Source: Syntrophomonadaceae bacterium (GTDB lineage: Bacteria > Bacillota > Dethiobacteria > DTU022 > UBA8154). From it: 38,187 bases of DNA. This document shows, in pieces, positions 546 through 30,076 of the stretch. A program made the position numbers and the translations under genes. Numbering within the stretch: position 1 is the stretch's first letter; every line of letters begins with the position of its first letter. The DNA lies in the NCBI GenBank assembly GCA_007131175.1, contig SLRC01000103.1, positions 1-38,187 of the forward strand. The letters run 5' to 3'. Below the pieces are notes generated by a model. It ran no database searches and was not told the origin of the DNA. It saw only the letters and a list, made by a program, of their open reading frames with translations.

Positions 546-601
546 TATAATGTCTTAAAGTGCCTATTGACAGGCGTTAACGGATAGTGTATAAACTAAA
601 T

Positions 602-2260
602 ATGGCAACTATTCGTAAAACCAAGGTTGGTAAATACACTTACTGGCAGATTGTTGAGTCCCGCAGGGTTAACGGCAAGCCAAGGCCCTTTGTGCTGGCC
701 CATTTGGGCACTGCTGAACAGCTATTGTATAAACTAAAGGAGGGACCGTTAAAAAAGAAAGTTCGTTCAGCATCCCATGGAGCAGTGCACCTTTTTTACA
801 AGACTGCTGAGGAAATGGATCTGGTTAATATCTTCAGAAAATCCTTTGCCCAACAGAAGCGGGACGGCTTGGAAACGGGCCAATCTCTGTTGCTTGCGGC
901 CTTGCACCGGGCCATCTGCCCGGGCAGCAAAAGAGCCTTCGCCAGCTGGGCAAAGCAAACCACCTTGCCGCAGCTGGTAAAATTTGATCCGAAAAAACTC
1001 GACAGCCAGCATTTCTGGGACCAGATGGATACGGTAAGTGAAGAGGTTCTGGATAAAGTGGAAAGGGAAATCACCTTGAAGCTTAAAGAAAAAGGTTTTC
1101 TTTCCCCCAGGCTTTTATTCTACGATCTGACCAACTTCTTCACCTACATCGACTCGGCAAACGGAAAAGCGGAACTGGTAAGGCGGGGGCATAACAAGCA
1201 AAAGCGCAATGATTTAAAACAGTTCGGCCTCATCCAAGTGGTCACCAGGGATTTCCTTCTCCCCGTCTTCTCCTCCGTCTATGCGGGTAACAAAACGTAT
1301 AAGGAGCTTTTCATTCCCCAGCTCACTAAGCTGCGCAAAGAGCTTGCAGAACTGAGCATCTCTGTAGAAGAGATTACCCTTGTTTTCGATAAAGGCAGCA
1401 ACACCAAGGACAACTTCGCTGCGCTGGATGAAGAGGAAATACCCTTTGTAGCCAGTCTGAGTGCCGCTTATCATGAGGATCTAATCAATATACCGGATAG
1501 CAGTTACACAAAAACAGAAGAACTTGTATACTGTCGTACCCGTAAAAAGATCTGGGGCAAGGAACGAACAGTTGTGCTCTACATCAGCGAAAAGCTGTGC
1601 CAGGGCCAAATTCGCGGCCTTAAGCAAACGCTGGCAAAAAAATATGAGCAGTTAAGCGCACTGAAAACAGCGCTGTTAAACCCCCGAGTACGGAAAAAGG
1701 AGCGTTCTGCTGTTGAAAAAAAGGTCCAGGAAATTCTCAAGGGTGAACGGGTGCCGGAACTGGTCAAGGTAACGATCCTGGAAAAAGAAAAGGGACGTTT
1801 CGACCTGAGCTGGGAACTTAACAATGAATTTTACCAGTGGCTCACAAAGACCTACTATGGGAAAAAGATCCTGGTCACCTGTCGGGACGAATGGAGCAGC
1901 GAAGATATTATTGCCGCATATCACGGCCAAAGCAACGTGGAACGGGTGTTTAAGCATTTCAAGAATCCTTACCACAACACTGTACGGCCCCTGTTTCACT
2001 GGACGGATCAGAAGATCAAGGTACACACCTTTATTTGTGTTGCCGGGTTGTTGCTGTCCCAGCTGGTATGGAAAAAGGCTAAGGAGCTTGGCTACACCTC
2101 CTCCATTGAAACTATTATTGATGAGCTATCCAAGGTAAGACAGACGGAAATTGTTACAATAACCGGCTTGGAAGGCAAGGCTCCCAAAGAAATTCAACTG
2201 GAAGATATGGAACCGGAGCTTGAAAAAATGTATACCGATATGGTGAATTTAACGTTTTAG
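602..2260 (+). CDS. IS1634-family (IS4 superfamily) DDE transposase
   Basis: The 552-residue protein catalyses cut-and-paste movement of the surrounding element. The N-terminus (ATIRKTKVGKYTYWQIVES) is typical of the long IS1634-type transposases. The likely catalytic triad is Asp175 in FYDLTNFF, Asp263 in LVFDKGSN and Glu447 in the GQSNVERVFKHFK segment, with the large insertion between the second Asp and the Glu that this group carries. No internal stop or frameshift is seen, so it may be active. I start at the ATG at 602, not the GTG at 587 in the ORF track, because the protein homology begins with MATIRK. The GTG lies inside a repeated TATAAACTAAA motif that may be a regulatory or transposase-binding site. 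No good ribosome site precedes either start. Confidence 0.85.
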   Translation: MATIRKTKVGKYTYWQIVESRRVNGKPRPFVLAHLGTAEQLLYKLKEGPLKKKVRSASHGAVHLFYKTAEEMDLVNIFRKSFAQQKRDGLETGQSLLLAALHRAICPGSKRAFASWAKQTTLPQLVKFDPKKLDSQHFWDQMDTVSEEVLDKVEREITLKLKEKGFLSPRLLFYDLTNFFTYIDSANGKAELVRRGHNKQKRNDLKQFGLIQVVTRDFLLPVFSSVYAGNKTYKELFIPQLTKLRKELAELSISVEEITLVFDKGSNTKDNFAALDEEEIPFVASLSAAYHEDLINIPDSSYTKTEELVYCRTRKKIWGKERTVVLYISEKLCQGQIRGLKQTLAKKYEQLSALKTALLNPRVRKKERSAVEKKVQEILKGERVPELVKVTILEKEKGRFDLSWELNNEFYQWLTKTYYGKKILVTCRDEWSSEDIIAAYHGQSNVERVFKHFKNPYHNTVRPLFHWTDQKIKVHTFICVAGLLLSQLVWKKAKELGYTSSIETIIDELSKVRQTEIVTITGLEGKAPKEIQLEDMEPELEKMYTDMVNLTF

Positions 2261-9097: not shown

Positions 9098-10117
9098 TTA
9101 CAGCCTTTCAAATTGACCGACCACTTGCTGTAATACAGCCACTACCCGTGAGTATTCCATCCGTGTGGGACCAAGAATACCAATAGTCCCCACCACCTCT
9201 TTACCCAGGCAGTAGGTTGTCATTACCAGGCTGCACTCCTGTACTTCCTCAAGTATATTTTCACGCCCGATCTTAATCACAATACCTTCAACACCAGCCA
9301 GCGGCCGGGAGAGTAAATTTGCCAGCAGAGCATGCTGTTCAAAAAGCATAAGCAGAGACTTTACTTTTTCAATATTGCCAAATTCGGGTTGGTTAAAAAT
9401 ATTGGTGGTCCCCCCGAGAAAAACACGGCTCTCATCTTCCGCAAGTGATTCTTCCAAAAGCGTAAATGTAGCCTCCAGAAAATTAATGTGATGATATAGA
9501 TCGCGACGCAATTCCCGGATCAGGCGGGAAGTAATTCTGTCTATGGTTAACCCTTCCAACCGCCTGTTAAGATGTGCGACAATTCGGTTCAGCTCACCCT
9601 GGGAAAGGGCTTGCGGGAGATTAATAACCTTGTTTTTAATTACACCCGTATCAGCAACAAGAACCAACAAACCTCTCTGCCTGTCAATTGGCATAATCTG
9701 TAGCTTCTTAAATGCACTCTTTTGTAAGCGGGGACCCAGAATCAAGGATGTATAATTTGTGAGCGATGAGACAAGTTGTGATGTTTGACGAATAATATTT
9801 TCAATCTCCCGCATCTTTTCAAAGGAAAATACTCCGTAGATACGTTTTTTTTCATCATCATCCAATTGAATTTCCTGCATTAGCTCATCAACATAATAAC
9901 GGTAGCCTTTTTGTGAAGGGATCCTCCCTGCCGATGTATGGGGTTGAAGCAGATAACCCATCTCTTCAAGATCAGCCATTTCATTACGAATGGTTGCCGG
10001 ACTGAATCCCATCTTATAACGACGGGCAATCGTACGTGAACCCACAGGCTGAGCCGTTTTAACATAATCGGTAACCACTGCCCTGAGAATCTCCATTTTC
10101 CGTGCACTGAGCCCCAT
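9098..10117 (-). CDS. hrcA: Heat-inducible transcription repressor HrcA
   Basis: This 339-residue repressor binds CIRCE elements and shuts off class I heat-shock genes; in known cases GroEL helps keep it active. The N-terminal winged helix (residues 1-75, LSARKMEILRAVVTDYVKTA) has the recognition region GFSPATIRNEMADLEEMGYL, typical of HrcA. A GAF-like dimerisation region follows, ending in SRVVAVLQQVVGQFERL. An AAAGGGGGG ribosome site precedes the ATG. It is the first gene of its operon and is autoregulated through the CIRCE immediately upstream. Confidence 0.96.
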   Translation of the reverse strand: MGLSARKMEILRAVVTDYVKTAQPVGSRTIARRYKMGFSPATIRNEMADLEEMGYLLQPHTSAGRIPSQKGYRYYVDELMQEIQLDDDEKKRIYGVFSFEKMREIENIIRQTSQLVSSLTNYTSLILGPRLQKSAFKKLQIMPIDRQRGLLVLVADTGVIKNKVINLPQALSQGELNRIVAHLNRRLEGLTIDRITSRLIRELRRDLYHHINFLEATFTLLEESLAEDESRVFLGGTTNIFNQPEFGNIEKVKSLLMLFEQHALLANLLSRPLAGVEGIVIKIGRENILEEVQECSLVMTTYCLGKEVVGTIGILGPTRMEYSRVVAVLQQVVGQFERL

Positions 10118-10147: not shown

Positions 10148-10174
10148 TTAGCACTCTAAGCTCTAGAGTGCTAA
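10148..10174 (-). promoter_or_regulatory. CIRCE operator (perfect)
   Basis: TTAGCACTC-N9-GAGTGCTAA matches the CIRCE consensus at every position, with the standard 9-bp spacer. It lies 31 bp before the hrcA start and at or just after the predicted transcription start. HrcA bound here should block hrcA-grpE-dnaK-dnaJ-rsmE-mtaB. Confidence 0.98.
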
Positions 10175-10186
10175 CCATCTTCCTTA

Positions 10187-10215
10187 ACAATACCATCGTC
10201 CTGCCAATTTGTCAA
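10187..10215 (-). promoter_or_regulatory. Sigma-A promoter of the hrcA-dnaK operon
   Basis: On the minus strand there is a perfect -35 TTGACA (10210-10215), a 17-bp spacer and a -10 TATTGT (10187-10192). Transcription would start near 10180, placing CIRCE at the 5' end of the transcript, as is usual for HrcA-regulated operons. Confidence 0.85.
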
Positions 10216-10245: not shown

Positions 10246-12429
10246 TCAGCTGTTATCAATCATTTGCATTCGTTTCAGCACCGCTGCAGGAGTTGCGAAA
10301 CGTTGCCGCGGATCTTTTTGCAACAGACCGGAAATAACCTCATCCAAAGCCTCCGGGATAGCGGGATTCAATCGTAAGGCCAGGGGAATTAAAGTGGAAC
10401 GATGATAAGATCGGAGTGACTTGATATCCGCTCCGCCACAAGGTAACAAGCCCGTAGCCATTTCAAACAAGATAACACCAAGAGAATATAGATCTGCACG
10501 GTGATCAACACCTTCCAGGGCCATTTCAGGGGATTCACTTCCCAGGCCACGTCCAGTGATAAAGGTGAGCAGGGATGATTTCCAGTTAAAGCGCTCCGGT
10601 GCAGCGTACAAATATGTCCTTAAAAATGCGGGATGCTGCCTTATAAAAGGTGAAGAAAACATTTTTGACCCTTCAATGGTTTCAATCAGGTCAAAATCAC
10701 TGATTATGGGGAACTCTTTCCTGTCAAAAAGAATGTTTTCCGGCTTAATAGCGCCATGTAAGTAGGCCTTTTTATAGCGGTAAAGATAATCGAGGGACAT
10801 TAATAATTTACGGGCAATTTTTAGAAGGTATTCAAGAGAAAAGGGGGCTTGTTTTAGCTTTTCCGCCAAATTTCCCCCTTCCATATATTCCATGACAAAG
10901 TACAAATCACCGTTATAATAACAGTCCCCTTCCGGAAAAAGTAAACCCGGTTGGTCAATATCCTGCATAAGTTTCAAACGGCCCTGGAGGCGCCGAACAG
11001 TTTGGGGATCTTTTAAGAAGGTTGCCTGAATTTGCTTGATTGCTATTTTTCTTCCCCGGGCCTGTTCCCTGCCCAGATAAACCTGGCCCGCCGGTCCGTT
11101 AGCTATTAGATCAATAATTTCATATTTACGCCAAAAAGCAGATCCCATGCTGCGTTTGTATATATCCCTTTTTAACTGATAATCCAAATCCACCGTGCTG
11201 GCAACTTCGCACCAGGTAGCAGCGTGGGCAGGATGTTCTGCTGCCAGTGTTTCTTCCATGAGGCGACAAAGTTCAAAATAATCCTTTTCCATCTCGAAGC
11301 GCACAGCTGGGGGAATAATTCTCAGGATCGCCTGTGCCCCTTTAAAATCTCCCTTATGAAGCGCGATGCGCACAAGCCCTGCCTGTGCCAGTCCGTAAAA
11401 TTTAGCAGTGGTCGCAACCGCACGGTAAAACTCCTCGGCAGCAGCATAATCCCTTTCTTCTTCGCGCAGCAATCCCATAAGATAGTTTTTCTTACAATGA
11501 AAAGCCTCAAGGAATGCGGCATTCTCTCCCGCACTATTTTTAATGCCAGCCTCTGCTTTTTTAAGCAGTTCTTCACCACGCAAAAGTTCGTTTGTCATGA
11601 GGTACAGCCAGGAAAGATCAAGGGCTATCCAGGTGTTCCCGCTTCGTTCCCAGGCCTCCTCTAAATATCGCATGGCCTGATTGTACATGCCGAGTCTGTG
11701 ATAAAGCTTACCCAGACGCAGAACCACACTTGTATCGTCGGGCATTAATCCGTAAAGGCGGAGATAAAAACGAATATATTCCAAATCTGTACGACACTGG
11801 GAAAGTGCTTCACGATAAATAAACGCGGCCTCTTTTTCCCCTTCTTCACAAGCTTCCATTACTCTGCCCAGGTTTTCATAAATATCCAGATCACGAGGAT
11901 TAAGTTTAACTGCTTTGCGGTAAAGATACTCCGCTTCTGAAAGCCCGGTTGCACCACGGGTATAAAAAAGGCGTCCTTTCTTTTTTATAATATTAATATC
12001 CTGCGGATTATTTCTTAAAACTTCTTCATAAAATAAAAGGGCTTCTTCCGTAAGATTACGGCTTAACAGGCAATCTCCCGTTGCTTCCCATATCCGATTA
12101 AAGACACGCTTCAAAAGGGTATATTTTTGCGTATCCACTCGGCGTTTATTATAAAAGCCTTCTAAAAGGGAATAAAGTTCATTACAAGTTTTAAGCGAGG
12201 CAGTGAAGCTCTCTGTAAAAAACTGCATTTCGGCAATCTGTATTAGTTCCAGAGCCCGTTTTTGCTCCGGATAAGCGTTCTGTAACAAAGCATCCAGTTT
12301 AACATCGTCATGCAGATCTTTTGGTTCAAGTTTAGTCCCAGCCGGTAGGATAAGCAAGGCACTAAAAGATCCATCAAGAAGCTGTGCCAGGGATAAATGT
12401 CCCTTTTTTTCCAGAATCCTTCTGTCCAT
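10246..12429 (-). CDS. TPR protein with C-terminal Ser/Thr kinase-like domain, predicted pseudokinase
   Basis: This is a 727-residue cytoplasmic protein with no membrane segment. Residues about 110-380 are helical TPR-type repeats (for example DIYENLGRVMEACEEGEKEA and VVLRLGKLYHRLGMYNQAM). Residues about 436-720 are a bacterial Ser/Thr kinase fold. The ATP-site Lys465 (IAIKQ), Asn565 (KPEN), APE (610-612) and the DLYSLG motif are present. The catalytic HRD is HGA (558-560), so the base Asp is Ala560, and DFG is DFD (578-580). The helix-C Glu is not evident and the glycine loop is poor. Catalysis by the usual route is therefore unlikely; a scaffold or sensor role is inferred. The start is clear: AAGGAG 9 nt before ATG. 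It lies upstream of hrcA but outside the CIRCE transcript. Confidence 0.85.
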   Translation of the reverse strand: MDRRILEKKGHLSLAQLLDGSFSALLILPAGTKLEPKDLHDDVKLDALLQNAYPEQKRALELIQIAEMQFFTESFTASLKTCNELYSLLEGFYNKRRVDTQKYTLLKRVFNRIWEATGDCLLSRNLTEEALLFYEEVLRNNPQDINIIKKKGRLFYTRGATGLSEAEYLYRKAVKLNPRDLDIYENLGRVMEACEEGEKEAAFIYREALSQCRTDLEYIRFYLRLYGLMPDDTSVVLRLGKLYHRLGMYNQAMRYLEEAWERSGNTWIALDLSWLYLMTNELLRGEELLKKAEAGIKNSAGENAAFLEAFHCKKNYLMGLLREEERDYAAAEEFYRAVATTAKFYGLAQAGLVRIALHKGDFKGAQAILRIIPPAVRFEMEKDYFELCRLMEETLAAEHPAHAATWCEVASTVDLDYQLKRDIYKRSMGSAFWRKYEIIDLIANGPAGQVYLGREQARGRKIAIKQIQATFLKDPQTVRRLQGRLKLMQDIDQPGLLFPEGDCYYNGDLYFVMEYMEGGNLAEKLKQAPFSLEYLLKIARKLLMSLDYLYRYKKAYLHGAIKPENILFDRKEFPIISDFDLIETIEGSKMFSSPFIRQHPAFLRTYLYAAPERFNWKSSLLTFITGRGLGSESPEMALEGVDHRADLYSLGVILFEMATGLLPCGGADIKSLRSYHRSTLIPLALRLNPAIPEALDEVISGLLQKDPRQRFATPAAVLKRMQMIDNS

Positions 12430-12525: not shown

Positions 12526-12783
12526 TTATACATCGGCAACTTTTTCAGTAATAATATCCTGTAGTTTTTCCCAGAACAATTTCCATGGCAAAGCATATTC
12601 CCGGCCGGCAAAAGTAATAATTAACCCCCGTTCTTCCGTGGCAAAAAAAAGAGCCTGCCTGGTTTCTTTCAGGCCGACAAGTTCCTGGGTCCCCTGTTCT
12701 GTAACGTTAAGACCAATATAAAGAAAGGTCAGCAAAATTGCCAACCCTGACAGCACAACAAAAAAGCCGAAGGTTTTGTGCAA
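12526..12783 (-). CDS. Small single-pass membrane protein, in the yqxA position
   Basis: This 85-residue protein has one N-terminal hydrophobic segment (FFVVLSGLAILLTFLYIGL) and a short soluble part. I do not recognise a domain. In Bacillus the gene yqxA (DUF3679) lies directly between spoIIP and the lepA-hemN-hrcA region, and this gene holds the same place here, so a distant YqxA relationship is possible. The case rests on position, size and membrane topology, not sequence. It follows spoIIP by 124 bp on the same strand. Confidence 0.6.
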   Translation of the reverse strand: MHKTFGFFVVLSGLAILLTFLYIGLNVTEQGTQELVGLKETRQALFFATEERGLIITFAGREYALPWKLFWEKLQDIITEKVADV

Positions 12784-12907: not shown

Positions 12908-13981
12908 TTAATCGAAGGCTTTGGCAAGGGCTTCTGCCAGATATGGTACAGCCCGCAGCACTTCATCTTTTTTATTCTCATGGCTCCCGATTTCCACAAG
13001 CACACTTCTGGGATGAACATGCTGGTTATAAGTAAATCTCTGTTTTCTTGTCCCCCGGCAGAGGCCAGGATATTTTTCATCCAGTATGTTCTGTAAAAAA
13101 AGGGCAAAGCGAAGGTTGCTGTTCCAGGCTTCGTGCCTTGTTCCCACAACGAATAAAATGCGGGCTGTATCATTTCCGTTTAAAGCAAAGGTGGTAATTT
13201 CCCGCGAGATTCCATCGCGGTGCAAATCCACTACCACTTCAATTTGGGGATTATCTTCCAGGATCTTCGTTATTGCTGGACGAGCCTGGGCATAAGCATT
13301 GCTACGGGGAATATCAAATATCTCCCTGTGGTGGAGTACTGGTACACCATACTCCGACTCAAGTATTTCCGCCAGGTAACTACCAAGGATAACTACACTC
13401 TGCGTTAAATCAGTAGTAAACGCTTTCCCGGAAACGGGGAGAAATGATTCTGTAGTATGGGTGTGATAAATAAGCAGCCGCGGTGAGTGCTGCTTCTCGC
13501 CGGCATCAATTTCAGCAGCAGGTGGTGACGCAAGGAGTGAAAGGGTTGTGCTTTCTGGCGCAGGTGCTAAAGGGTTTTCTGACGTTATAGCAATAAGATG
13601 CTCCGGAGTGGGATTACGGCTCTTTTCAACATTCAAAGCGGCCTTCTGCGCCGTTTTTTCACTTCCGAAACCGGGAGGCATACTGCCAAGAAGCAACCGG
13701 TTATAAGCATCTTTTAAAGTTAGTCCGTTTTCAATTAGCGCTGAGGGGTTCTTTTTTACATGTTCGGCCATTCCCGGCAAATGCTGTTCTACCAGAATAA
13801 GGTAGCCAGTGCCAGAACCTCCCAGAGAGGCAGGAAAAAAAATAATTGCCGCCATTGTTAACGCCATCATTAGTAAAAGAATGCGGATCAAGCCTATGAT
13901 ATCAGTTCCTTTTGTCACGGGAATAAAGTGATGTTTATAAATTTCTTTTTGCCATGCAACACGACTGCCTTGATACAACAA
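12908..13981 (-). CDS. spoIIP: Stage II sporulation protein P (peptidoglycan amidase/endopeptidase)
   Basis: This 357-residue membrane-anchored enzyme acts with SpoIID and SpoIIM in the mother cell to thin septal peptidoglycan and drive engulfment. A cytoplasmic start of about 27 residues is followed by a membrane segment (28-50). The zinc-type catalytic motif IYHTHTTESF places His173, His175 and Glu178; DLHRDG and EIGSHENKKDE come later, as in the family. Translation begins at TTG 13981 or the adjacent TTG 13978, both just after an AAAAGGGGGGG tract. That tract is also the 3' arm of the iscU terminator. Its presence shows the host is a spore former. Confidence 0.93.
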   Translation of the reverse strand: MLYQGSRVAWQKEIYKHHFIPVTKGTDIIGLIRILLLMMALTMAAIIFFPASLGGSGTGYLILVEQHLPGMAEHVKKNPSALIENGLTLKDAYNRLLLGSMPPGFGSEKTAQKAALNVEKSRNPTPEHLIAITSENPLAPAPESTTLSLLASPPAAEIDAGEKQHSPRLLIYHTHTTESFLPVSGKAFTTDLTQSVVILGSYLAEILESEYGVPVLHHREIFDIPRSNAYAQARPAITKILEDNPQIEVVVDLHRDGISREITTFALNGNDTARILFVVGTRHEAWNSNLRFALFLQNILDEKYPGLCRGTRKQRFTYNQHVHPRSVLVEIGSHENKKDEVLRAVPYLAEALAKAFD

Positions 13982-14029
13982 AACCCCCCCTTTTCATATC
14001 CCGCTTTCTATAGATATGAAAAGAAGGGG
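13976..14029 (-). terminator. Terminator of rrf2-nifS-iscU, overlapping the spoIIP ribosome site
   Basis: On the minus strand CCCCUUCUUUUCAUAUC pairs with GAUAUGAAAAGGGGGGG: 15 Watson-Crick pairs plus two G-U pairs, with a 12-nt loop. UUUUGUUGU follows, which is a classical intrinsic terminator. The 3' arm is the G-rich ribosome site of spoIIP and the U-tract contains its TTG start. Confidence 0.8.
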
Positions 14030-14058
14030 CCGAAATATGTGTTCAAATGAAAAGTAAC

Positions 14059-22368: not shown

Positions 22369-23040
22369 CTAATTCAAATCCTTTCGTTCTCCTGTTACTA
22401 GAAATATTACATTCTCACCGATGTTGGTGGCGTGATCAGCAATACGCTCCAAGTAGCGGCTGATAAAAAGGAGATGGGTGGCCTGGGTAATGGTGCGGGG
22501 GTTTTCCATCATGATGGTAAGCAATTCCCGGAAGATCTGCTTGTGCAGCATATCCACCTCATCATCATGCTGGGCCATGCTCACGGCCAGGGACACATCT
22601 TCCTTGATATAAGAGTCAAGGGATTCTTTTACCATTAGCTGGGTAATTCTGGCCATCCTGGGTATATCCACCAGAGGCTTAATCAATGGCTGATTGCCAA
22701 TATTTTTGATTGTTTTGGCAATGTCCAAGGCATAATCGCCCATCCGCTCCAGGTCCATAATCATTTTTAAAAGGGTGGCAACTTTGCGTAAGTCTTTGGC
22801 CATGGGCTGCTGGGTGGCAATGAGTGCAAGACAACCTTCTTCGATCTCCAACTCCAGTTCATCGATGCGATCATCATTATTAATTACTTTCTCAGCCATT
22901 TCCAGGTCCTGACTTTTTAAAGAATCAATGGCCCTGGCGATAGCTTCCTCAACAAGGCCGCCCATTTGTAAAAGTTTATTTTGCAATTCCCCAATCTTTT
23001 TTACATAAACAATCTTTTTATCCTGATGACTTGTTTCCAT
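22369..23040 (-). CDS. phoU: Phosphate transport regulator PhoU
   Basis: This 223-residue, mostly helical protein links the Pst transporter to signalling and restrains phosphate uptake. Two PhoU repeats are visible, each with its acidic metal-binding helix (EKVINNDDRIDELELEIEE and VSMAQHDDEVDMLHKQ) and the arginine-rich turn (DLERMGDYALDIA and YLERIADHATNIGE). The ORF track starts at a TTG (23061), but that codon overlaps the GGAGAGGAGAG ribosome site; the ATG at 23040 is the better start. It is the last gene of the pst operon, 35 bp after pstB. Confidence 0.95.
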   Translation of the reverse strand: METSHQDKKIVYVKKIGELQNKLLQMGGLVEEAIARAIDSLKSQDLEMAEKVINNDDRIDELELEIEEGCLALIATQQPMAKDLRKVATLLKMIMDLERMGDYALDIAKTIKNIGNQPLIKPLVDIPRMARITQLMVKESLDSYIKEDVSLAVSMAQHDDEVDMLHKQIFRELLTIMMENPRTITQATHLLFISRYLERIADHATNIGENVIFLVTGERKDLN

Positions 23041-23075
23041 GAGCTTTTCTCTCCTCTCCAAACGTTTATTCTGAT

Positions 23076-23840
23076 TTAACCAAAACGTCCCGTAATGTAT
23101 TCTTCGGTGCGGTTGTCCTTGGGGTTAGTGAATATTACCTCTGTCCTGTCTGTTTCAATAAGCTCACCGTTTAAAAAAAAGAACGTTTCATCTGATACCC
23201 GTCCTGCTTGTTGCATATTATGAGTTACAATAATAATATTGTAATGTTTCCTCAAGCTGCGCACCAAGTCTTCAATTCTTGATGTAGCCGCAGGATCCAA
23301 GGCAGATGTGGGTTCGTCCATGAGGATAACCTCAGGTTCGTTGGCAAGCGTTCTGGCAATACATAGCCGCTGCTGCTGTCCTCCTGAAAGGCTAAGCCCC
23401 GGTTCATTAAGACGGTCTTTTACTTCATCCCATAGCGCAGCCTGCCTCAAACTTTTTTCGACCAGTTCATTCAACTCTGACTTTTTATGCTTCCCGTGAA
23501 TACGGGGGCCAAAGGCAACATTTTCGAAAATGGACTTGGGGAAAGGATTTGGTTTTTGAAACACCATCCCAACTCGGGTCCTCAGATTAACAAGATTTAT
23601 GTTTTCATCAAAAATATTATGTCCTTGAAGATTTACACTCCCTGTATATTTTACGTTAGGAACCAGATCAACCATGCGGTTAAGAACTTTAAGAAATGTA
23701 GACTTGCCGCAGCCGGATGGCCCTATAATAGCTGTGACTTTTTGCATTTTAATATTAACATTTATATTTTTTAAGGCTTGATTTTTACCATACCACAGAT
23801 TTAATGCTTCTGTAGAAAATATCACTCCGTTATCTGACAT
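23076..23840 (-). CDS. pstB: Phosphate ABC transporter ATP-binding protein PstB
   Basis: This 254-residue ATPase powers high-affinity phosphate import. Walker A is GPSGCGKST, the Q-loop is [13 protein letters not shown] (characteristic of PstB), the signature is LSGGQQQRL, Walker B is [13 protein letters not shown], and the switch His is in IVTHN. A perfect AAGGAGG precedes the ATG. It follows pstA in the operon. Confidence 0.97.
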
Positions 23841-23873
23841 ACTTATCCTCCTTCTCTATATCTATATTTTTAA

Positions 23874-24749
23874 TTACCATGTTTGCTTTTTACGAATTTG
23901 GTAGCGCCAGATAATAGCCACCATATTTAAACCCATAACCATGGCTATAAGGACCAGTGCAGTTGCATATGCGATCGGCCGAACCTGGGCAGGGCTCATA
24001 TGCTGTGTGGCAAGAATATAAAGATGATAAGGCATTGCCATGAAGCGATCACTTAAAGAAGTGGGCAGCGCCGGCAGAAAAAAAGCTGCCCCGGTAAGGA
24101 TAATGGGAGCAGTTTCACCGGTAGCCCGTGCAAGGGCAAGAATGGAACCGGTTGCCATTCCGGATATGGCATTGGGTAAAACCAACTGTCGAATCATCTG
24201 CCACTTTGTGGCACCAAGCGCCAGCCCTCCTTCACGAAACGATTGGGGAACCGCTTTTAAGGCCTCCTCTGACGCAGTAATAACCCAGGGGAGACTCATA
24301 ATGGAGAGCGTAAGTGCCGCAGAAATCAGCGATGTCCCCAAACCAAGGGTTGCCGCAAAAAGGCCAAGCCCAAAAAGGCCGTAAACGATAGAAGGTACTC
24401 CAGAGAGGTTACGGATACTGAGCCGTATGACCCTCACCAAAGTTCCTTTGCTGGCATATTCATTAAGGTAAATTGCAGATGTGATACCAACGGGAACAGA
24501 AATTATAATTGTGAGAGAGGCTACATAAAAAGTCCCCACAATAGCGGGCCAGATTCCCCCTGCTGTCATTTGCTCACGGGGCCGGTCTGTGAGAAAAGTC
24601 CAATTAATGGTGCTGTAACCTTTGGAAGCAACATCGTATAAAATCCAAAACAAAACAGCAATTGTCAAAATCATAAAGAGACCACACATTGAAAAATAGA
24701 CTTTCTCCGCTATTTTCTTATTACGTAAATTCCTTTCCATTTCAGTCAT
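23874..24749 (-). CDS. pstA: Phosphate ABC transporter permease PstA
   Basis: This 291-residue inner-membrane permease has six hydrophobic segments. The EAA loop that contacts PstB is visible in EGGLALGATKWQMIRQLVLP. The conserved region RNLSGVPSIVYGLFGLGLF follows the second segment. Its ATG overlaps the end of pstC by 8 bp (ATGACTGA), with AGGAGGTGA upstream, so translation is coupled. With PstC it forms the phosphate channel. Confidence 0.96.
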   Translation of the reverse strand: MTEMERNLRNKKIAEKVYFSMCGLFMILTIAVLFWILYDVASKGYSTINWTFLTDRPREQMTAGGIWPAIVGTFYVASLTIIISVPVGITSAIYLNEYASKGTLVRVIRLSIRNLSGVPSIVYGLFGLGLFAATLGLGTSLISAALTLSIMSLPWVITASEEALKAVPQSFREGGLALGATKWQMIRQLVLPNAISGMATGSILALARATGETAPIILTGAAFFLPALPTSLSDRFMAMPYHLYILATQHMSPAQVRPIAYATALVLIAMVMGLNMVAIIWRYQIRKKQTW

Positions 24750-25758
24750 TGCGGTTCACCTCCTGAAAACGGGAAAGCATTATATCGGAAACAAGGTTTA
24801 CAAGAAAAGTTATCACAAAAAGAACAACTCCGATCACAAATAAAGCATGATAGTGGGTGCTGCCCCAGGGCACGTCACTGGCTTCAATGGCGATCGTGGC
24901 AGTCAAAGTCCGCATAGACTGCATAAGTGTAGGCACAGGGATATTGAGTATTTCTTTAAGGGGCATGTCAAGAGCGTTACCTGCAGCCATCAAAACTGCC
25001 ATTGTCTCTCCAACAACCCGGCCAAAACCCAGCATAACAGCGGCTACTATACCTGAACTTGCTGCAGGTATACTAACATACCGGGCCGTCTCCCAATTGG
25101 TTGCACCCAAGGCAATAGCAGCTTCCTTGTAATCTTTTGGAACACTGTTAAGGGCGTCTTCACTGATTGAAATAATCGTTGGCAAAGCCATAATGGCCAA
25201 CACTATAGCACCGGTAAGGCCGATCAGACCACTGGACAGATTAAAGACACGGGCGATAAAGGGCCCCACCACAACAAGGGCTATAAACCCGAGCACAACG
25301 GAAGGGAATATTTCCAGCACTTCAATCACGGGTTTTAAAATTTCCCTGATTAATCGGGGAGCAGCTTCACCCAAGTAAACAGCAGCAGCCAGAGACCAAG
25401 GCACAGCCATGAGCAAAGCTCCTACTGTAATAATAATTGAACCAAGGATCAGGGGCAAGGCCCCAAAACCGGGGTTAGGAGAAGACGGCATCCATCGCTG
25501 ACCAAAAATAAATTCACTGATACGAACTTCCTGTAAGGCAGGCCAACTGTTTTTCAACAAGAAGTACAAAATCAGGAGTAACACGAAAATAGAAAGCATC
25601 CCACATATTAAAAAAAACTTCTCTAAAATAAAGTTTCCCAAGTTGCTTTTAATCGACTGCTGGGTCAAGTCATCCTGCATCTTTCTGGAAGACGTTCCGA
25701 CTGCAGGTTGTTTTTGTACCTGAATCTTATAGAAATCTGCCTCATCAAGTTTGGCCAT
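24742..25758 (-). CDS. pstC: Phosphate ABC transporter permease PstC
   Basis: This 338-residue permease has a soluble N-terminal stretch of about 45 residues before the first membrane segment, longer than in many PstC proteins. The EAA loop KEAAIALGATNWETARYVSIP is typical. Six main membrane segments follow the extension. AAGGAGG precedes the ATG. It lies between pstS and pstA and overlaps pstA by 8 bp. Confidence 0.95.
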   Translation of the reverse strand: MAKLDEADFYKIQVQKQPAVGTSSRKMQDDLTQQSIKSNLGNFILEKFFLICGMLSIFVLLLILYFLLKNSWPALQEVRISEFIFGQRWMPSSPNPGFGALPLILGSIIITVGALLMAVPWSLAAAVYLGEAAPRLIREILKPVIEVLEIFPSVVLGFIALVVVGPFIARVFNLSSGLIGLTGAIVLAIMALPTIISISEDALNSVPKDYKEAAIALGATNWETARYVSIPAASSGIVAAVMLGFGRVVGETMAVLMAAGNALDMPLKEILNIPVPTLMQSMRTLTATIAIEASDVPWGSTHYHALFVIGVVLFVITFLVNLVSDIMLSRFQEVNRND

Positions 25759-25787
25759 TTTTTTCCTCCTTCTGCAATAATAATATA

Positions 25788-26780
25788 TTAGTTGCCAAGG
25801 ACTGTGGCATTCATCTGCCTGTATTCATCATGGATACCGTAAAATCCGGCTTCCACTACTGCAGCCTGCCCTTCATCAGATAGAACCCAATCAATGTAGT
25901 GACGGATGAGCCCTTCAGGATAGCCATTCAGATAAAAGAAGAGAGGACGGGAAATGGGATAAGAGCCGTCTGAGACATTGGATGCTTCCCTGGGTGAGAC
26001 TGCCGGCTGCCCTACATGGCCAACATTAATTGCCTTAACCCCGTCAGTCAGGTAACCAATGCCGCTGTAGCCGATGCCACCACGGTCAGCTTTTACCCCT
26101 TCGACCACCTGTGACGAACCGGGCTGAAAGCGGGTTCCCGCTGCCCAGTCTTCACCATGCATGATATTTTCATTAATGTAAACGTACGTTCCTGAATTAG
26201 ACTGGCGTGAAAAAATGTCGATATGGCCGCCATCTGCCCAGCCAAGCTCGCTCCACTCGGTTATTTTGCCGGTAAAAATGTCTTTTAACTGGGCAACATC
26301 CAGCTCATCAATAGGATTTTCCTCGTTCAGGTATATTGCAAGCCCGTCCTGGGCTACTATTATTTCATAAGCCTCAACTCCATTTGCCTGTGCTTCCTCA
26401 AACTCACTGTCCCGCATGGTACGGGAAACCTGAGCTATATCAATATTGTCGTTAATCAAAGCTGCTATTCCGGTGCCCGAACCTCCGCCCGTTACAGATA
26501 TGGCCGCATTAGAATTTACGTTGTCCATGTAAACTTCCGCCAGGTGTTGTCCCATGTTCACCATCGTGTCAGATCCTTGAACAGAAAAACTTCCTGCAGG
26601 CAACTCATCTGCTACAGCACCGCTATTTTCACCCTGACTGGGCGCAGGATTGGGTGTCGGAGTGGGTGCCCCGCCTCCACATCCTGTGAGAATCCCCACC
26701 GCCAAAAAAATCGCCGCCAGCACAAAAATGAATAAACAATTGTCGTAACTCCTGCCCGTATTCCTCCTACCATAGTACAT
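25788..26780 (-). CDS. pstS: Phosphate-binding lipoprotein PstS
   Basis: This 330-residue substrate-binding protein hands phosphate to PstC/PstA. It is a lipoprotein: a hydrophobic signal (residues 15-31) ends in lipobox LTGC with Cys34, followed by a Pro/Ala/Asn spacer. Phosphate-site features include SFSVQGSDTMVNMGQHLAE near the start, VTGGGSGTGIAAL in the middle and SRQSNSGTYVY later. GAGGAGGG precedes the ATG. It is first in the pst operon and lies behind the PhoP-box array, so strong induction under phosphate starvation is expected. Confidence 0.96.
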   Translation of the reverse strand: MYYGRRNTGRSYDNCLFIFVLAAIFLAVGILTGCGGGAPTPTPNPAPSQGENSGAVADELPAGSFSVQGSDTMVNMGQHLAEVYMDNVNSNAAISVTGGGSGTGIAALINDNIDIAQVSRTMRDSEFEEAQANGVEAYEIIVAQDGLAIYLNEENPIDELDVAQLKDIFTGKITEWSELGWADGGHIDIFSRQSNSGTYVYINENIMHGEDWAAGTRFQPGSSQVVEGVKADRGGIGYSGIGYLTDGVKAINVGHVGQPAVSPREASNVSDGSYPISRPLFFYLNGYPEGLIRHYIDWVLSDEGQAAVVEAGFYGIHDEYRQMNATVLGN

Positions 26781-26831
26781 CTTTTTTGTCCCTCCTCTTT
26801 TTCGTGGGATTAACTCCCGCTGGTATAAAGC

Positions 26832-26837
26832 ATAATA
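26832..26837 (-). promoter_or_regulatory. Likely -10 element of the pst operon
   Basis: TATTAT on the minus strand lies just downstream of the last PhoP box, where a -10 is expected in PhoP-activated promoters that lack a good -35. An overlapping alternative is TATGCT. Position, not a match to both hexamers, is the main support. Confidence 0.5.
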
Positions 26838-26843
26838 TGCCTA

Positions 26844-26904
26844 AGTTAAAAACCCGCGAAAAAAAGGTTAATTTGAAGTTAAATGTTTTTTAAAAGAATG
26901 TTAA
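26844..26904 (-). promoter_or_regulatory. PhoP-box array: five TTAACA-type repeats with an 11-bp period
   Basis: On the minus strand TTAACA (26899-26904), TTAAAA (26888), TTAACT (26877), TTAACC (26866) and TTAACT (26844) fall exactly on an 11-bp grid; only the position at 26855 (TTCGCG) deviates. This matches the known PhoP site of Gram-positives, TTAACA repeats with 5-bp spacers. It lies upstream of the pstS -10 region. Confidence 0.85.
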
Positions 26905-26959
26905 ATTAGAATAACCCTGAAGGTGAGGTGAAGCTGTCTGAGGTTAGTTAAGTGAAAAG

Positions 26960-26998
26960 CCAGGGGGTGTTCCCGTCGTTACCGGGTACACCCCCTGG
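26960..26998 (-). terminator. Terminator at the end of phoP-phoR-arsC
   Basis: The arms CCAGGGGGTGT and ACACCCCCTGG form an 11-bp stem topped by a CCCG/CGGG inner stem. On the minus strand it is followed by CUUUUCACUU, a modest U-tract. It isolates the regulatory operon from the pstS promoter just beyond. Confidence 0.75.
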
Positions 26999-27068
26999 TT
27001 GATGAATATAATTTACAATACGTTTCAGTTTCCAGCCCGGACAATCAGGTTACTCTCAGCATTGCCCT

Positions 27069-27512
27069 CTATCCTTCCGGTGCAAGCAAGCCGGCACTTT
27101 GCAACCAATCTTTTATGCGTTGTTCAATCTGATCACGGATTTCACGAAACTTGACCAGCTTTTCCTCATCACTGCCTGCCAGGGCAGCCGGATCATTAAA
27201 CGACCAGTGCAGGATAGCTCCCGCCTTCGGAAATACGGCTGGACAACTTTCTTCCGCCTTGGAACAAACAGTAACAACGTAATCAAAATGAACCTTGCCC
27301 ATGTATTCCTTTATATGTTTGGAGTAATGTCCTTCCAGGCTGATTCCTTTTTCCTGCATTACCTGCCTGGTGTAGGGATTTACGCCCTGGGGTTCAAGTC
27401 CGGCACTAAACGCTTCAAATCGCTCCCCGTCATAATAATGCAAAAAAGCCTCGGCCATTTGACTGCGTGCAGAATTGCCGGTGCATAAAAAAAGCACTCT
27501 GCTTTTGCTCAA
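27069..27512 (-). CDS. arsC: Arsenate reductase, thioredoxin-dependent ArsC type
   Basis: This 147-residue protein has the LMW-phosphatase fold and reduces arsenate to arsenite. The P-loop is VLFLCTGNSARSQ with Cys10; the redox pair is Cys83 and Cys90 (VTVCSKAEESCPAVFP). This triple arrangement is that of the thioredoxin-linked ArsC of Gram-positives. The ORF track begins at GTG 27521, which overlaps the AGGAGG ribosome site; TTG 27512 has ideal spacing and gives Cys10 in the family numbering. It begins 20 bp after phoR ends and is probably in the same transcript. Confidence 0.92.
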   Translation of the reverse strand: MSKSRVLFLCTGNSARSQMAEAFLHYYDGERFEAFSAGLEPQGVNPYTRQVMQEKGISLEGHYSKHIKEYMGKVHFDYVVTVCSKAEESCPAVFPKAGAILHWSFNDPAALAGSDEEKLVKFREIRDQIEQRIKDWLQSAGLLAPEG

Positions 27513-27532
27513 TATGACCACCTCCTATTTTT

Positions 27533-29308
27533 TCATTTTTTGCAAAACGACAACGTAAAAATGCTGCCCTCGCCCAAGGTACTTTTTACTTCAATTGCAG
27601 CATTATGGGCCTCCACAATATGCTTGACCACGGCAAGACCCAAGCCTGTTCCGCCGAGACGTCTTGAACGGGCTTTATCGGCCCGGTAAAAACGATCGAA
27701 AATATACGGCAGATCCTCCGGGGAGATACCTATACCCGTGTCCCTGATCTTAACAACACATTCGCTATCCTGCTTTTCAATGGTAATAAAGATCTTTCCC
27801 TGATCCGGCGTGTATTTAATGGCGTTGTCCAACAGATCGATAAACAGCTGTAGCAGCCAGTCAGGATCTCCCTGAATGCTACACCCTTCGTGCATCACGT
27901 CTAACTGCATATCCAGATTTTTGCTGTCAGCCTGTTTTTGCAGCATGGAAACAGCCTCTTTAACAACCAGCTCCAACATTACCTTTTGCTTTTTCATTAC
28001 CCCTTTATTATTTTCAATCTGTGATAGATTGAGCAGGTCATTTAAAATACGGGATAATCTTTCCGCTTCTTTATCGATAATACTCAAAAAGTGCAACACC
28101 GTATCCCGATCATCCCAGTTTGTTTCATCCAAAAGGGTTTCGGCATATCCCTTGATTGTTGTTAACGGGGTACGAAGTTCGTGGGAAACATTGGCTGCAA
28201 ATTCACTTCTCATCCTCTCCAGGGAGCGCAAACCTGTAATATCATGTAAAACAGCAAGGGCGCCGGTTACCCTGTTAAATTGATCCCTGATCGGGATAAT
28301 ATACACTTGTAAAACTTTGGTTTCAGGGAAAATTAGGTTTAAATCAAATGATTTTATGGCGCCACCGGCCAGCGCTTCCTGAAACTGGTCATAGAGGAGA
28401 TAGTTGCGAAAGGCCATATTTACAGGCAGCCCCAACACTTTTTCCCTGTCCAGGCCAAATAAGTTAATCACCGCATCGTTAATGAAATCTATTTCACCCT
28501 TATTATTACAAAGGATTACACCGCTTGTCATGGCGGACATAACTGTCTCCAGCCTGTTTTTCTCATAAACTATCAGGTCTACATTTTCTTTTAAAGTCTC
28601 TCCCATTTCATTAATGGTTCTGGCCAGAGTACCCAGTTCATCATCCCGCTCATATTCAACCCGTTTGCTAAAATCACCTGAAGCAATGCCCCTGGCGACC
28701 CGTCCCACTGCTTCAAGTGGCCTTGTGATTTTACTGGAAAAACGAAAGCTTAGCAGAGATGAAATGAAAAGGGCCAGAAACAGGCCTGATATTAAAATTG
28801 TTCGTAGTTGGCTGATATTGCTTCTGATAAAAGAAAGGGGCACAGAAATGCGGACGAAACCACTGGTCTCCTCTTCCCTTTCCAAAACCAGCGCCACATA
28901 ATACATTTGCATACCCACAGTTGAGCTGTACCTCTGGCTCGTTCCTTTGCCTTCCCTTAAAGCCGCCTGGATTTCAGGCCGGTTAAGGTGGTTTTCCATC
29001 AGGACCGCTTCTTCCAGCGAATCCCCGATTACCCTGCCATCAGGTGCTATATAGGTAATGCGCTGCCCCGTGTTGGCCCCAATCCTCTCACACATATCAT
29101 CCACCAGCTGTTCTTTACTTCCCCCTGTGAGCATGTTGTTGATTAATTCCCCTGTAATAAATGCTTCGTTAACAATTTGCCTTTCCAAATTTGCCATATA
29201 GAAACTCTCGATGCGCCAGATTAAATAGCCACCGATCGTCAATAAACTAACCGTAATAATCATAAAATGGAGCATTGTCAGTCGCCAGCGGATACTGTGA
29301 AATGGCAT
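27533..29308 (-). CDS. phoR: Phosphate-regulon sensor histidine kinase PhoR
   Basis: This 591-residue membrane kinase has a membrane segment at about 12-31, an extracytoplasmic domain, a second membrane segment at about 170-190, a HAMP linker and a PAS domain (VILCNNKGEIDFINDAV). The HisKA domain has phospho-acceptor His376 in SHELRTPL. The ATPase domain has the N box (LDNAIKYTP), G1 (DTGIGIS) and G2 (GGTGLGLAVVKHI). It would phosphorylate the PhoP encoded directly upstream when phosphate is scarce. AGAAAGAAGG precedes the ATG. Confidence 0.95.
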   Translation of the reverse strand: MPFHSIRWRLTMLHFMIITVSLLTIGGYLIWRIESFYMANLERQIVNEAFITGELINNMLTGGSKEQLVDDMCERIGANTGQRITYIAPDGRVIGDSLEEAVLMENHLNRPEIQAALREGKGTSQRYSSTVGMQMYYVALVLEREEETSGFVRISVPLSFIRSNISQLRTILISGLFLALFISSLLSFRFSSKITRPLEAVGRVARGIASGDFSKRVEYERDDELGTLARTINEMGETLKENVDLIVYEKNRLETVMSAMTSGVILCNNKGEIDFINDAVINLFGLDREKVLGLPVNMAFRNYLLYDQFQEALAGGAIKSFDLNLIFPETKVLQVYIIPIRDQFNRVTGALAVLHDITGLRSLERMRSEFAANVSHELRTPLTTIKGYAETLLDETNWDDRDTVLHFLSIIDKEAERLSRILNDLLNLSQIENNKGVMKKQKVMLELVVKEAVSMLQKQADSKNLDMQLDVMHEGCSIQGDPDWLLQLFIDLLDNAIKYTPDQGKIFITIEKQDSECVVKIRDTGIGISPEDLPYIFDRFYRADKARSRRLGGTGLGLAVVKHIVEAHNAAIEVKSTLGEGSIFTLSFCKK

Positions 29309-29356
29309 TTGCCGACCTTCTTTCTATCAACCTGCTGTCCGCAACCGCCAAACGGC

Positions 29357-30076
29357 TCAGCTGTTAGAGTCCAAATAATAACCCACGCCACGGATTGTTT
29401 TAATGTAGCGGGGGTTGGCAGGATCTGTTTCTACTTTTTGCCTTAAATGCCTGATATGGACATCCACTGTGCGGGTATCAATCTCTGTATCATAACCCCA
29501 GATCTTTTCCAACAATAAATCTCTATTTAAAACCTTACCCCTGTTGCTCATTAAAAGCTTTAACAGCTCAAATTCTTTATGAGTAAGGTTAATCTGCTTT
29601 TCCCCCACATATGCTTTGTATTCATCCAGTTTGAGGTTTAGCTCTCCCGTCTGCAGGGTTGAAGATCCATTGTCAGTTCCATTTTGCGGCATCTTTTCTG
29701 AATCTGTTTTACTACGTCGCAAATGGGCTTTGATGCGGGAAAGGAGTTCCCGGATACTGAATGGTTTCGTTACATAATCATCGGCCCCAAGCTCCAGGCC
29801 AAGCACCACATCCAGCTCTTCACTCTTTGCCGTAAGCATAATAACAGGTGTATCTTTAAAGCCATCCCAAGAGCGAAGTATTCGGCAGATCTCATAACCG
29901 TCCACTTCCGGCAACATAATATCAAGCAGAATTAGATCAGGCTTTTCATCCTGAAGCATGCTCAAAGCTTCCCGGCCATCGGCAACAGAAACAATATTAT
30001 AACCTTGTTTCGTTAAATTGAATTCCAATAACCCTTTAATCTCTTCGTCATCTTCAATAATAAATATCTTTTTCAT
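29357..30076 (-). CDS. phoP: Phosphate-regulon response regulator PhoP
   Basis: This 239-residue OmpR-type regulator has a receiver domain with phospho-acceptor Asp52 (LLDIMLPEVDG), the acidic pocket (IEDDEE) and the switch Lys in TKPFSIREL. The C-terminal winged helix has EFELLKLL and DTRTVDVHIRHLRQKVE, with GVGYYLD near the end. It would bind the TTAACA array in front of pstS. An AAAAGAGGTG ribosome site precedes the ATG and lies in a small CTCTTT/AAAGAG palindrome. Confidence 0.95.
   Translation of the reverse strand: MKKIFIIEDDEEIKGLLEFNLTKQGYNIVSVADGREALSMLQDEKPDLILLDIMLPEVDGYEICRILRSWDGFKDTPVIMLTAKSEELDVVLGLELGADDYVTKPFSIRELLSRIKAHLRRSKTDSEKMPQNGTDNGSSTLQTGELNLKLDEYKAYVGEKQINLTHKEFELLKLLMSNRGKVLNRDLLLEKIWGYDTEIDTRTVDVHIRHLRQKVETDPANPRYIKTIRGVGYYLDSNS

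Follow-up and report, generated by a model that had tools for sequence, protein, structure and literature searches.

Bacterial pseudokinases have barely been studied, and TPR fusions go unmentioned in a review of their families from 2025 (PMC12599244). In the DYD pseudokinases and in POMK (motif DLD), the acidic residue of the DYD/DLD motif is proposed to offset the missing helix-C Glu, and models of the DYD pseudokinases make the motif Asp the partner of the beta-3 residue (PMC12599244). MviN/ActPs3 and EssB/YukC are bacterial pseudokinases in non-catalytic scaffold roles (PMC12599244). Kinase folds are also found in spore formation: the bacterial spore kinases CotS, YtaA, YutH and YsxE include several pseudokinases and some of them are under sigma-E (PMC2860764). 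The plant brassinosteroid-signalling kinases BSK3 and BSK8 combine TPRs with a kinase-like domain whose activity is doubtful and are proposed to act as scaffolds (PMC6336344).

The window analysed here is a stretch of 38,187 nucleotides from a Syntrophomonadaceae bacterium (contig SLRC01000103.1). It contains a TPR-pseudokinase gene, named PSK, whose open reading frame and translation give a protein of 727 aa (ATG at 12429, stop at 10246-10248). A first reading of the DNA, made from the sequence only, had placed it at the correct coordinates, to which the strand is now added.
10246..12429, minus strand: PSK, TPR-pseudokinase gene (ORF, translation, Pfam, orthologs)
11152..12270, minus strand: TPR-type helical repeat region of PSK, aa 54-426 (Pfam TPR families and AlphaFold helix pairs)
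10282..11124, minus strand: kinase-fold domain of PSK, aa 436-716 (PF00069, E 8.7e-31; Foldseek)

The kinase domain belongs to the protein kinase superfamily: its Pfam match to Pkinase scored 107.7 bits against a curated cut-off of 31.7, and it has the bilobal kinase fold. The top Foldseek match of this part is Staphylococcus aureus PknB (4eqm, TMt 0.83), with PknB and PknA of Mycobacterium tuberculosis also near. By sequence, the nearest solved chains in the PDB are PknB and StkP, and the best NCBIfam match is NF033483, the PASTA kinase family. Several TPR families match PSK between about aa 110 and 375, and TPR families were found by Pfam in 12/12 aligned members. An AlphaFold model built from 12 orthologs (mean pLDDT 84, pTM 0.79) shows paired helices over aa 54-426; the TPR-type repeats first noticed before the kinase domain are thus present but extend further than the approximately 270 residues then assigned to them. 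The N-terminal hydrophobic stretch is weak (Kyte-Doolittle up to 1.8), with no clear membrane helix.

Twelve PSK orthologs were found besides that of the window, all in the same family and with 36-70% identity. The motif residues of the window protein are K465, HGA 558-560, K562, N565, DFD 578-580, APE 610-612 and DLYSLG 646-651. The sequence-only reading had described these residues accurately, namely Lys465, Asn565, APE and DxxxLG as kept, HGA and DFD as degenerate, and the helix-C Glu as not evident.
11035..11037, minus strand: codon of Lys465, the beta-3 Lys, invariant (ortholog alignment)
10735..10758, minus strand: HGAIKPEN, the degenerate catalytic loop, in which the HRD Asp is replaced by A/N/G (ortholog alignment)
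10690..10698, minus strand: DFD replacing DFG, with Asp580 invariant and Asp578 replaced by Gly in 4/13 (ortholog alignment)

In all 13 members in which the region is covered, the window's included, Ala, Asn or Gly stands in for the HRD Asp, and Gly for the HRD Arg. The DFG-equivalent motif reads [D/G][F/I]D: the DFG Gly is lost in 13/13 in favour of an invariant Asp, which is the sole acidic residue of the motif in the four members whose first position is Gly. The helix-C Glu is missing in all 14 aligned rows, where its position is occupied by R/L/I/F/M/T/Y (R484 in the window PSK). Invariant across members are Lys465, Lys562, Asn565, Asp580, Glu612, the helix-F Asp646, Arg710 and APE, and the glycine-rich loop is mostly conserved. 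The PASTA kinases of the same family, the same genomes and the order have canonical residues at these positions. By a sequence criterion that asks for the loss of at least one of the beta-3 Lys, the HRD Asp and the DFG Asp, conserved in orthologs, PSK would be classed as a pseudokinase, the second being lost in 13/13 members and the third in 4/13. The sequence-only reading had said that orthologs mostly with HRD and DFG would make this a local mutation; no ortholog has either, and that refutation fails. The orthologs it had expected in related Clostridia do exist, but in the Dethiobacter lineage and not in Clostridia at large.

Purifying selection acts on the kinase part. Between genomes G000 and G003 its dN is 0.155 and its dS 1.07, giving a dN/dS of about 0.14, as compared with about 0.19 for the TPR part, 0.19 for spoIIP and 0.04 for hrcA (Nei-Gojobori); these values are approximate, dS being close to saturation. 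Since the motif loss is shared by all orthologs and accompanied by purifying selection, PSK represents a conserved pseudokinase family and not a local mutation, and the first impression of a TPR-pseudokinase is borne out by 13 members. That the gene is decaying, or that its motifs come from a sequencing or assembly error, could be suspected from the incomplete assembly of the window genome (76.9%), but this explanation can be practically dismissed: 13 separate genomes share an uninterrupted frame and the same substitutions, dN/dS is well below 1, and the orthologs refute it.

Because Lys465, Asn565 and the glycine-rich loop are conserved, nucleotide can probably still bind. Loss of the HRD Asp speaks against ordinary phosphotransfer, which is presumably absent; with Asn565 and Lys465 retained and one acidic residue left in the motif, some weak or altered catalysis may persist. 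A Lys465-Asp580 pair is proposed because the helix-C Glu is lost and an invariant Asp stands at the DFG Gly position, recalling the DYD pseudokinases and POMK. PSK could instead be a rewired enzyme in which Asp580 takes over metal binding and phosphorylation or AMPylation proceeds by a non-canonical route, as in WNK, POMK or SelO. The conservation of Lys465, Lys562, Asn565, Asp580 and most of the glycine-rich loop would fit such an enzyme, as would the position of Asp580 as only acidic motif residue where the DFG Asp is Gly and the occurrence of HG for HR in SelO as well (PMC12599244). This is nevertheless unlikely: no ortholog retains the HRD Asp, and the residue in its place may be A, N or G, a variation to be expected once a catalytic base has been abandoned; the helix-C Glu is lost throughout, and assignment to the SelO AMPylases was rejected, no SelO match being found in Pfam at E 0.001 in 12/12 members.

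The distribution of PSK is narrow. No full-length match outside the family was found in 399 genomes drawn from the phylum. Another family of the order has one diverged, contig-truncated relative with 27% identity, in G025 and beside a selD-like gene. The relatives include assemblies of Dethiobacter sp. and D. alkaliphilus, and from record names the PSK-bearing family appears to be Dethiobacteraceae; some of the hosts are spore-forming soda-lake bacteria. No pseudogene remnants were detected in the genomes without PSK (best tblastn E 0.18). Kinases of other phyla with HG[AN]KPEN (68 loci) were rejected as members of the same family, since they mostly keep DFG or have other endings, and none of those read by eye has DFD. 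In one family genome, a 1715-aa open frame (L021, G007:C69) encodes a very long multidomain protein starting with a degenerate kinase (HGN for HRD, GF for DF). No paper describing a TPR-pseudokinase fusion of the PSK kind was found in the open-licence literature searched, in agreement with the initial remark that such a fusion was not recognised as described. The most fitting label for PSK is that of a new family of bacterial pseudokinases, PF00069 in type and fused to TPRs.

PSK lies between a sporulation gene and the heat-shock operon.
12908..13981, minus strand: spoIIP, first gene of the proposed unit (PF07454, E 4.6e-64)
12526..12783, minus strand: small YqxA-like membrane protein, conserved between spoIIP and PSK
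10187..10215, minus strand: sigma-70-like promoter of the hrcA operon, TTGACA-17-TATTGT with TG before the -10 (consensus scan, such sites being at chance level)
10148..10174, minus strand: perfect CIRCE operator between PSK and hrcA (motif)
9098..10117, minus strand: hrcA, followed by the heat-shock operon genes grpE, dnaK and dnaJ (Pfam)

The order spoIIP, YqxA-like gene, PSK is constant across genera, which upholds the synteny with spoIIP pointed out from the window alone; the YqxA assignment relies on position and on sub-threshold DUF3679 scores in orthologs only. On the other side of PSK, genera g2, g4 and g6 have a PAS-PAS-GGDEF-HD-GYP gene before hrcA and g8 has an adenine deaminase gene. 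Sigma-70 promoter and terminator scans were at chance level. Elsewhere in the window, translations indicate a phosphate-uptake type cluster at 22369-30076 (PhoU-like protein, ABC transporter parts and binding protein, together with a histidine kinase, a response regulator and an arsenate-reductase/phosphatase-like protein) and a transposase-like frame of 557 aa near the window edge (587-2260, plus strand).

An accessory role in the HrcA/DnaK heat-shock system would suit the window genus, in which PSK adjoins hrcA codirectionally, and TPR proteins are known to be able to bind Hsp70. Such a role is very unlikely in view of the perfect CIRCE that separates the two genes wherever the region was covered, the genes inserted between them in other genera, and the presence of hrcA in nine family genomes without PSK. 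All relatives for which the sequence upstream of hrcA was covered likewise have a perfect CIRCE there, and the single CIRCE of the window is downstream of PSK rather than upstream, for which reason membership of PSK in the HrcA/CIRCE regulon was rejected. The functional tie to the heat-shock operon suggested at first is thus unsupported, and the link is positional only.

The upstream side of the unit carries a different signal.
14012..14038, minus strand: sigma-E-like promoter motif ATATT-N15-CATATCT upstream of spoIIP (12/14 spoIIP upstream regions, 1.2 expected)

In Bacillus subtilis, spoIIP is reported to be under sigma-F and sigma-E, and the sigma-E -35 element of Clostridioides difficile to contain ATA (PMC3789822). 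The motif ATA-N15-18-CATA, for which a closely similar sigma-E pattern had been fixed before the upstream sequences were viewed, was found upstream of spoIIP in 12 of 14 genomes with 1.2 expected, of dnaK in 3/12 (0.75 expected), of PSK in 0/10 and of none of the other genes. Co-transcription of PSK with spoIIP and expression in the mother cell would fit this arrangement; the gap between spoIIP and PSK is about 480 bp and could hold an unrecognised promoter.

The occurrence of PSK also follows that of sporulation genes. Among 23 family genomes, PSK is present in 13 of the 18 that are SpoIIP-positive and in none of the five that are SpoIIP-negative; order-wide, all 14 PSK bearers encode SpoIIP and none of 36 SpoIIP-negative genomes has PSK. 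Four of the five SpoIIP-negative family genomes (G006, G008, G013, G018) also miss SpoIVA and SpoVA. The fifth, G002 (69% complete), is without SpoIIP and SpoIVA and keeps SpoVA; here a single deletion could account for the absence of both spoIIP and PSK. In that genome (L174, 8837-9107) nifU adjoins hrcA, and spoIIP, the YqxA-like gene and PSK, which other members of the genus have, are all missing between them. In three genomes without spoIIP (L176, L177 and L180, in G013, G018 and G008), a lepA-like GTPase gene stands between nifU/iscS and hrcA, the site of spoIIP and PSK in PSK genomes; lepA is found elsewhere in some PSK genomes.

A plain Fisher test of the association gives p 0.007 with relatedness ignored. 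Mapped on a tree built from HrcA, DnaK and IscS, PSK requires five changes, against two for sporulation. In pairs differing in sporulation, PSK agrees in direction whenever it differs, the two independent sporulation losses being too few for significance. Three of the five PSK changes are accounted for by spore-forming lineages, at least three in number, that miss the gene (G007; G010 with G016; G014); sporulation therefore does not need PSK. PSK thus has a link to sporulation without being indispensable for it, and this link is better than that to heat shock.

The spore-forming lineages that do without PSK would also suit a conserved TPR-pseudokinase of general signalling, for example linked to the cell envelope or to c-di-GMP, that is merely downstream of spoIIP. 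In g2, g4 and g6 the next gene after PSK is the PAS-PAS-GGDEF-HD-GYP gene with intact GGDEF and HD motifs, which points the same way. However, the window genus and g8 do not have that gene in this position, it stays where PSK is lost (G007, G016), and PSK never occurs without SpoIIP; general signalling is a minority possibility, still to be taken seriously. The protein itself, with both motifs intact, is encoded directly upstream of hrcA in several genera, PSK adjoining or not (L179 and L183, in G007 and G016; L035, L036, L038, L040, L042).

The reading preferred here, with a probability of roughly one half, is that PSK is a lineage-specific, catalytically defective kinase of PknB/PrkC type behind a TPR superhelix, encoded by the third gene of the spoIIP unit, expressed under sigma-E in the mother cell and acting as a scaffold or switch. 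During sporulation, a sigma-E-type promoter before spoIIP would drive all three genes of this unit in the mother cell. The TPR part would dock a partner; the pseudokinase domain, with its probable nucleotide, would set the conformation of the protein or bind a second partner, and Asp580 would pair with Lys465, compensating for the lost helix-C Glu. Given the TPR superhelix in front, a scaffold or nucleotide-gated switch is most likely, as the most economical role. A more specific proposal can be put forward only tentatively: a new family joining a TPR superhelix to a nucleotide-binding, non-phosphorylating kinase domain, with Asp580 replacing the helix-C Glu as partner of Lys465, made alongside SpoIIP in the mother cell and with a part in engulfment or in assembly of the spore. 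If true, sporulation would gain a PknB-type pseudokinase, and a natural test would be at hand of an acidic DFG-position residue offsetting helix-C Glu loss. The PSK clade offers a clean case, with one gene at a fixed locus, losses that stand next to orthologs still present, and kinases of canonical type in these genomes as well.

Among known systems, the PASTA serine/threonine kinases (PknB, PrkC, StkP) are closest to the PSK kinase domain in sequence and fold. In contrast to them, PSK is without the HRD Asp, the helix-C Glu and the DFG Gly, and has N-terminal TPRs instead of a C-terminal transmembrane helix and PASTA domains; with canonical motifs lost and no PASTA match, PSK was rejected as a PASTA kinase of PrkC/PknB type. 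It resembles the DYD pseudokinases and POMK in the missing helix-C Glu, the Asp as third DFG-equivalent residue and the retained catalytic-loop Asn, and Firmicutes are among the hosts of DYD pseudokinases too. The latter are, however, membrane-associated and have Arg for the beta-3 Lys, whereas in PSK this Lys is invariant, the HRD Asp is lost, TPRs are fused and there is no clear membrane helix; assignment to the DYD pseudokinases was rejected on Lys465, although the helix-C Glu loss and the second motif Asp do fit. MviN/ActPs3 and EssB/YukC are scaffold-type pseudokinases, as proposed for PSK, but both belong to the membrane, their beta-3 Lys is degraded and they have no TPR fusion; no match of PSK to either family was found. 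CotS, YtaA, YutH and YsxE are spore-coat proteins of choline/aminoglycoside-kinase type, unlike the PF00069 type with TPRs seen in PSK. The TPRs of BSK3 and BSK8 are C-terminal, and an origin independent of PSK is presumed for these plant proteins. In terms of how it would work, the scaffold or switch role proposed for PSK is comparable to BSK3 (PMC6336344).
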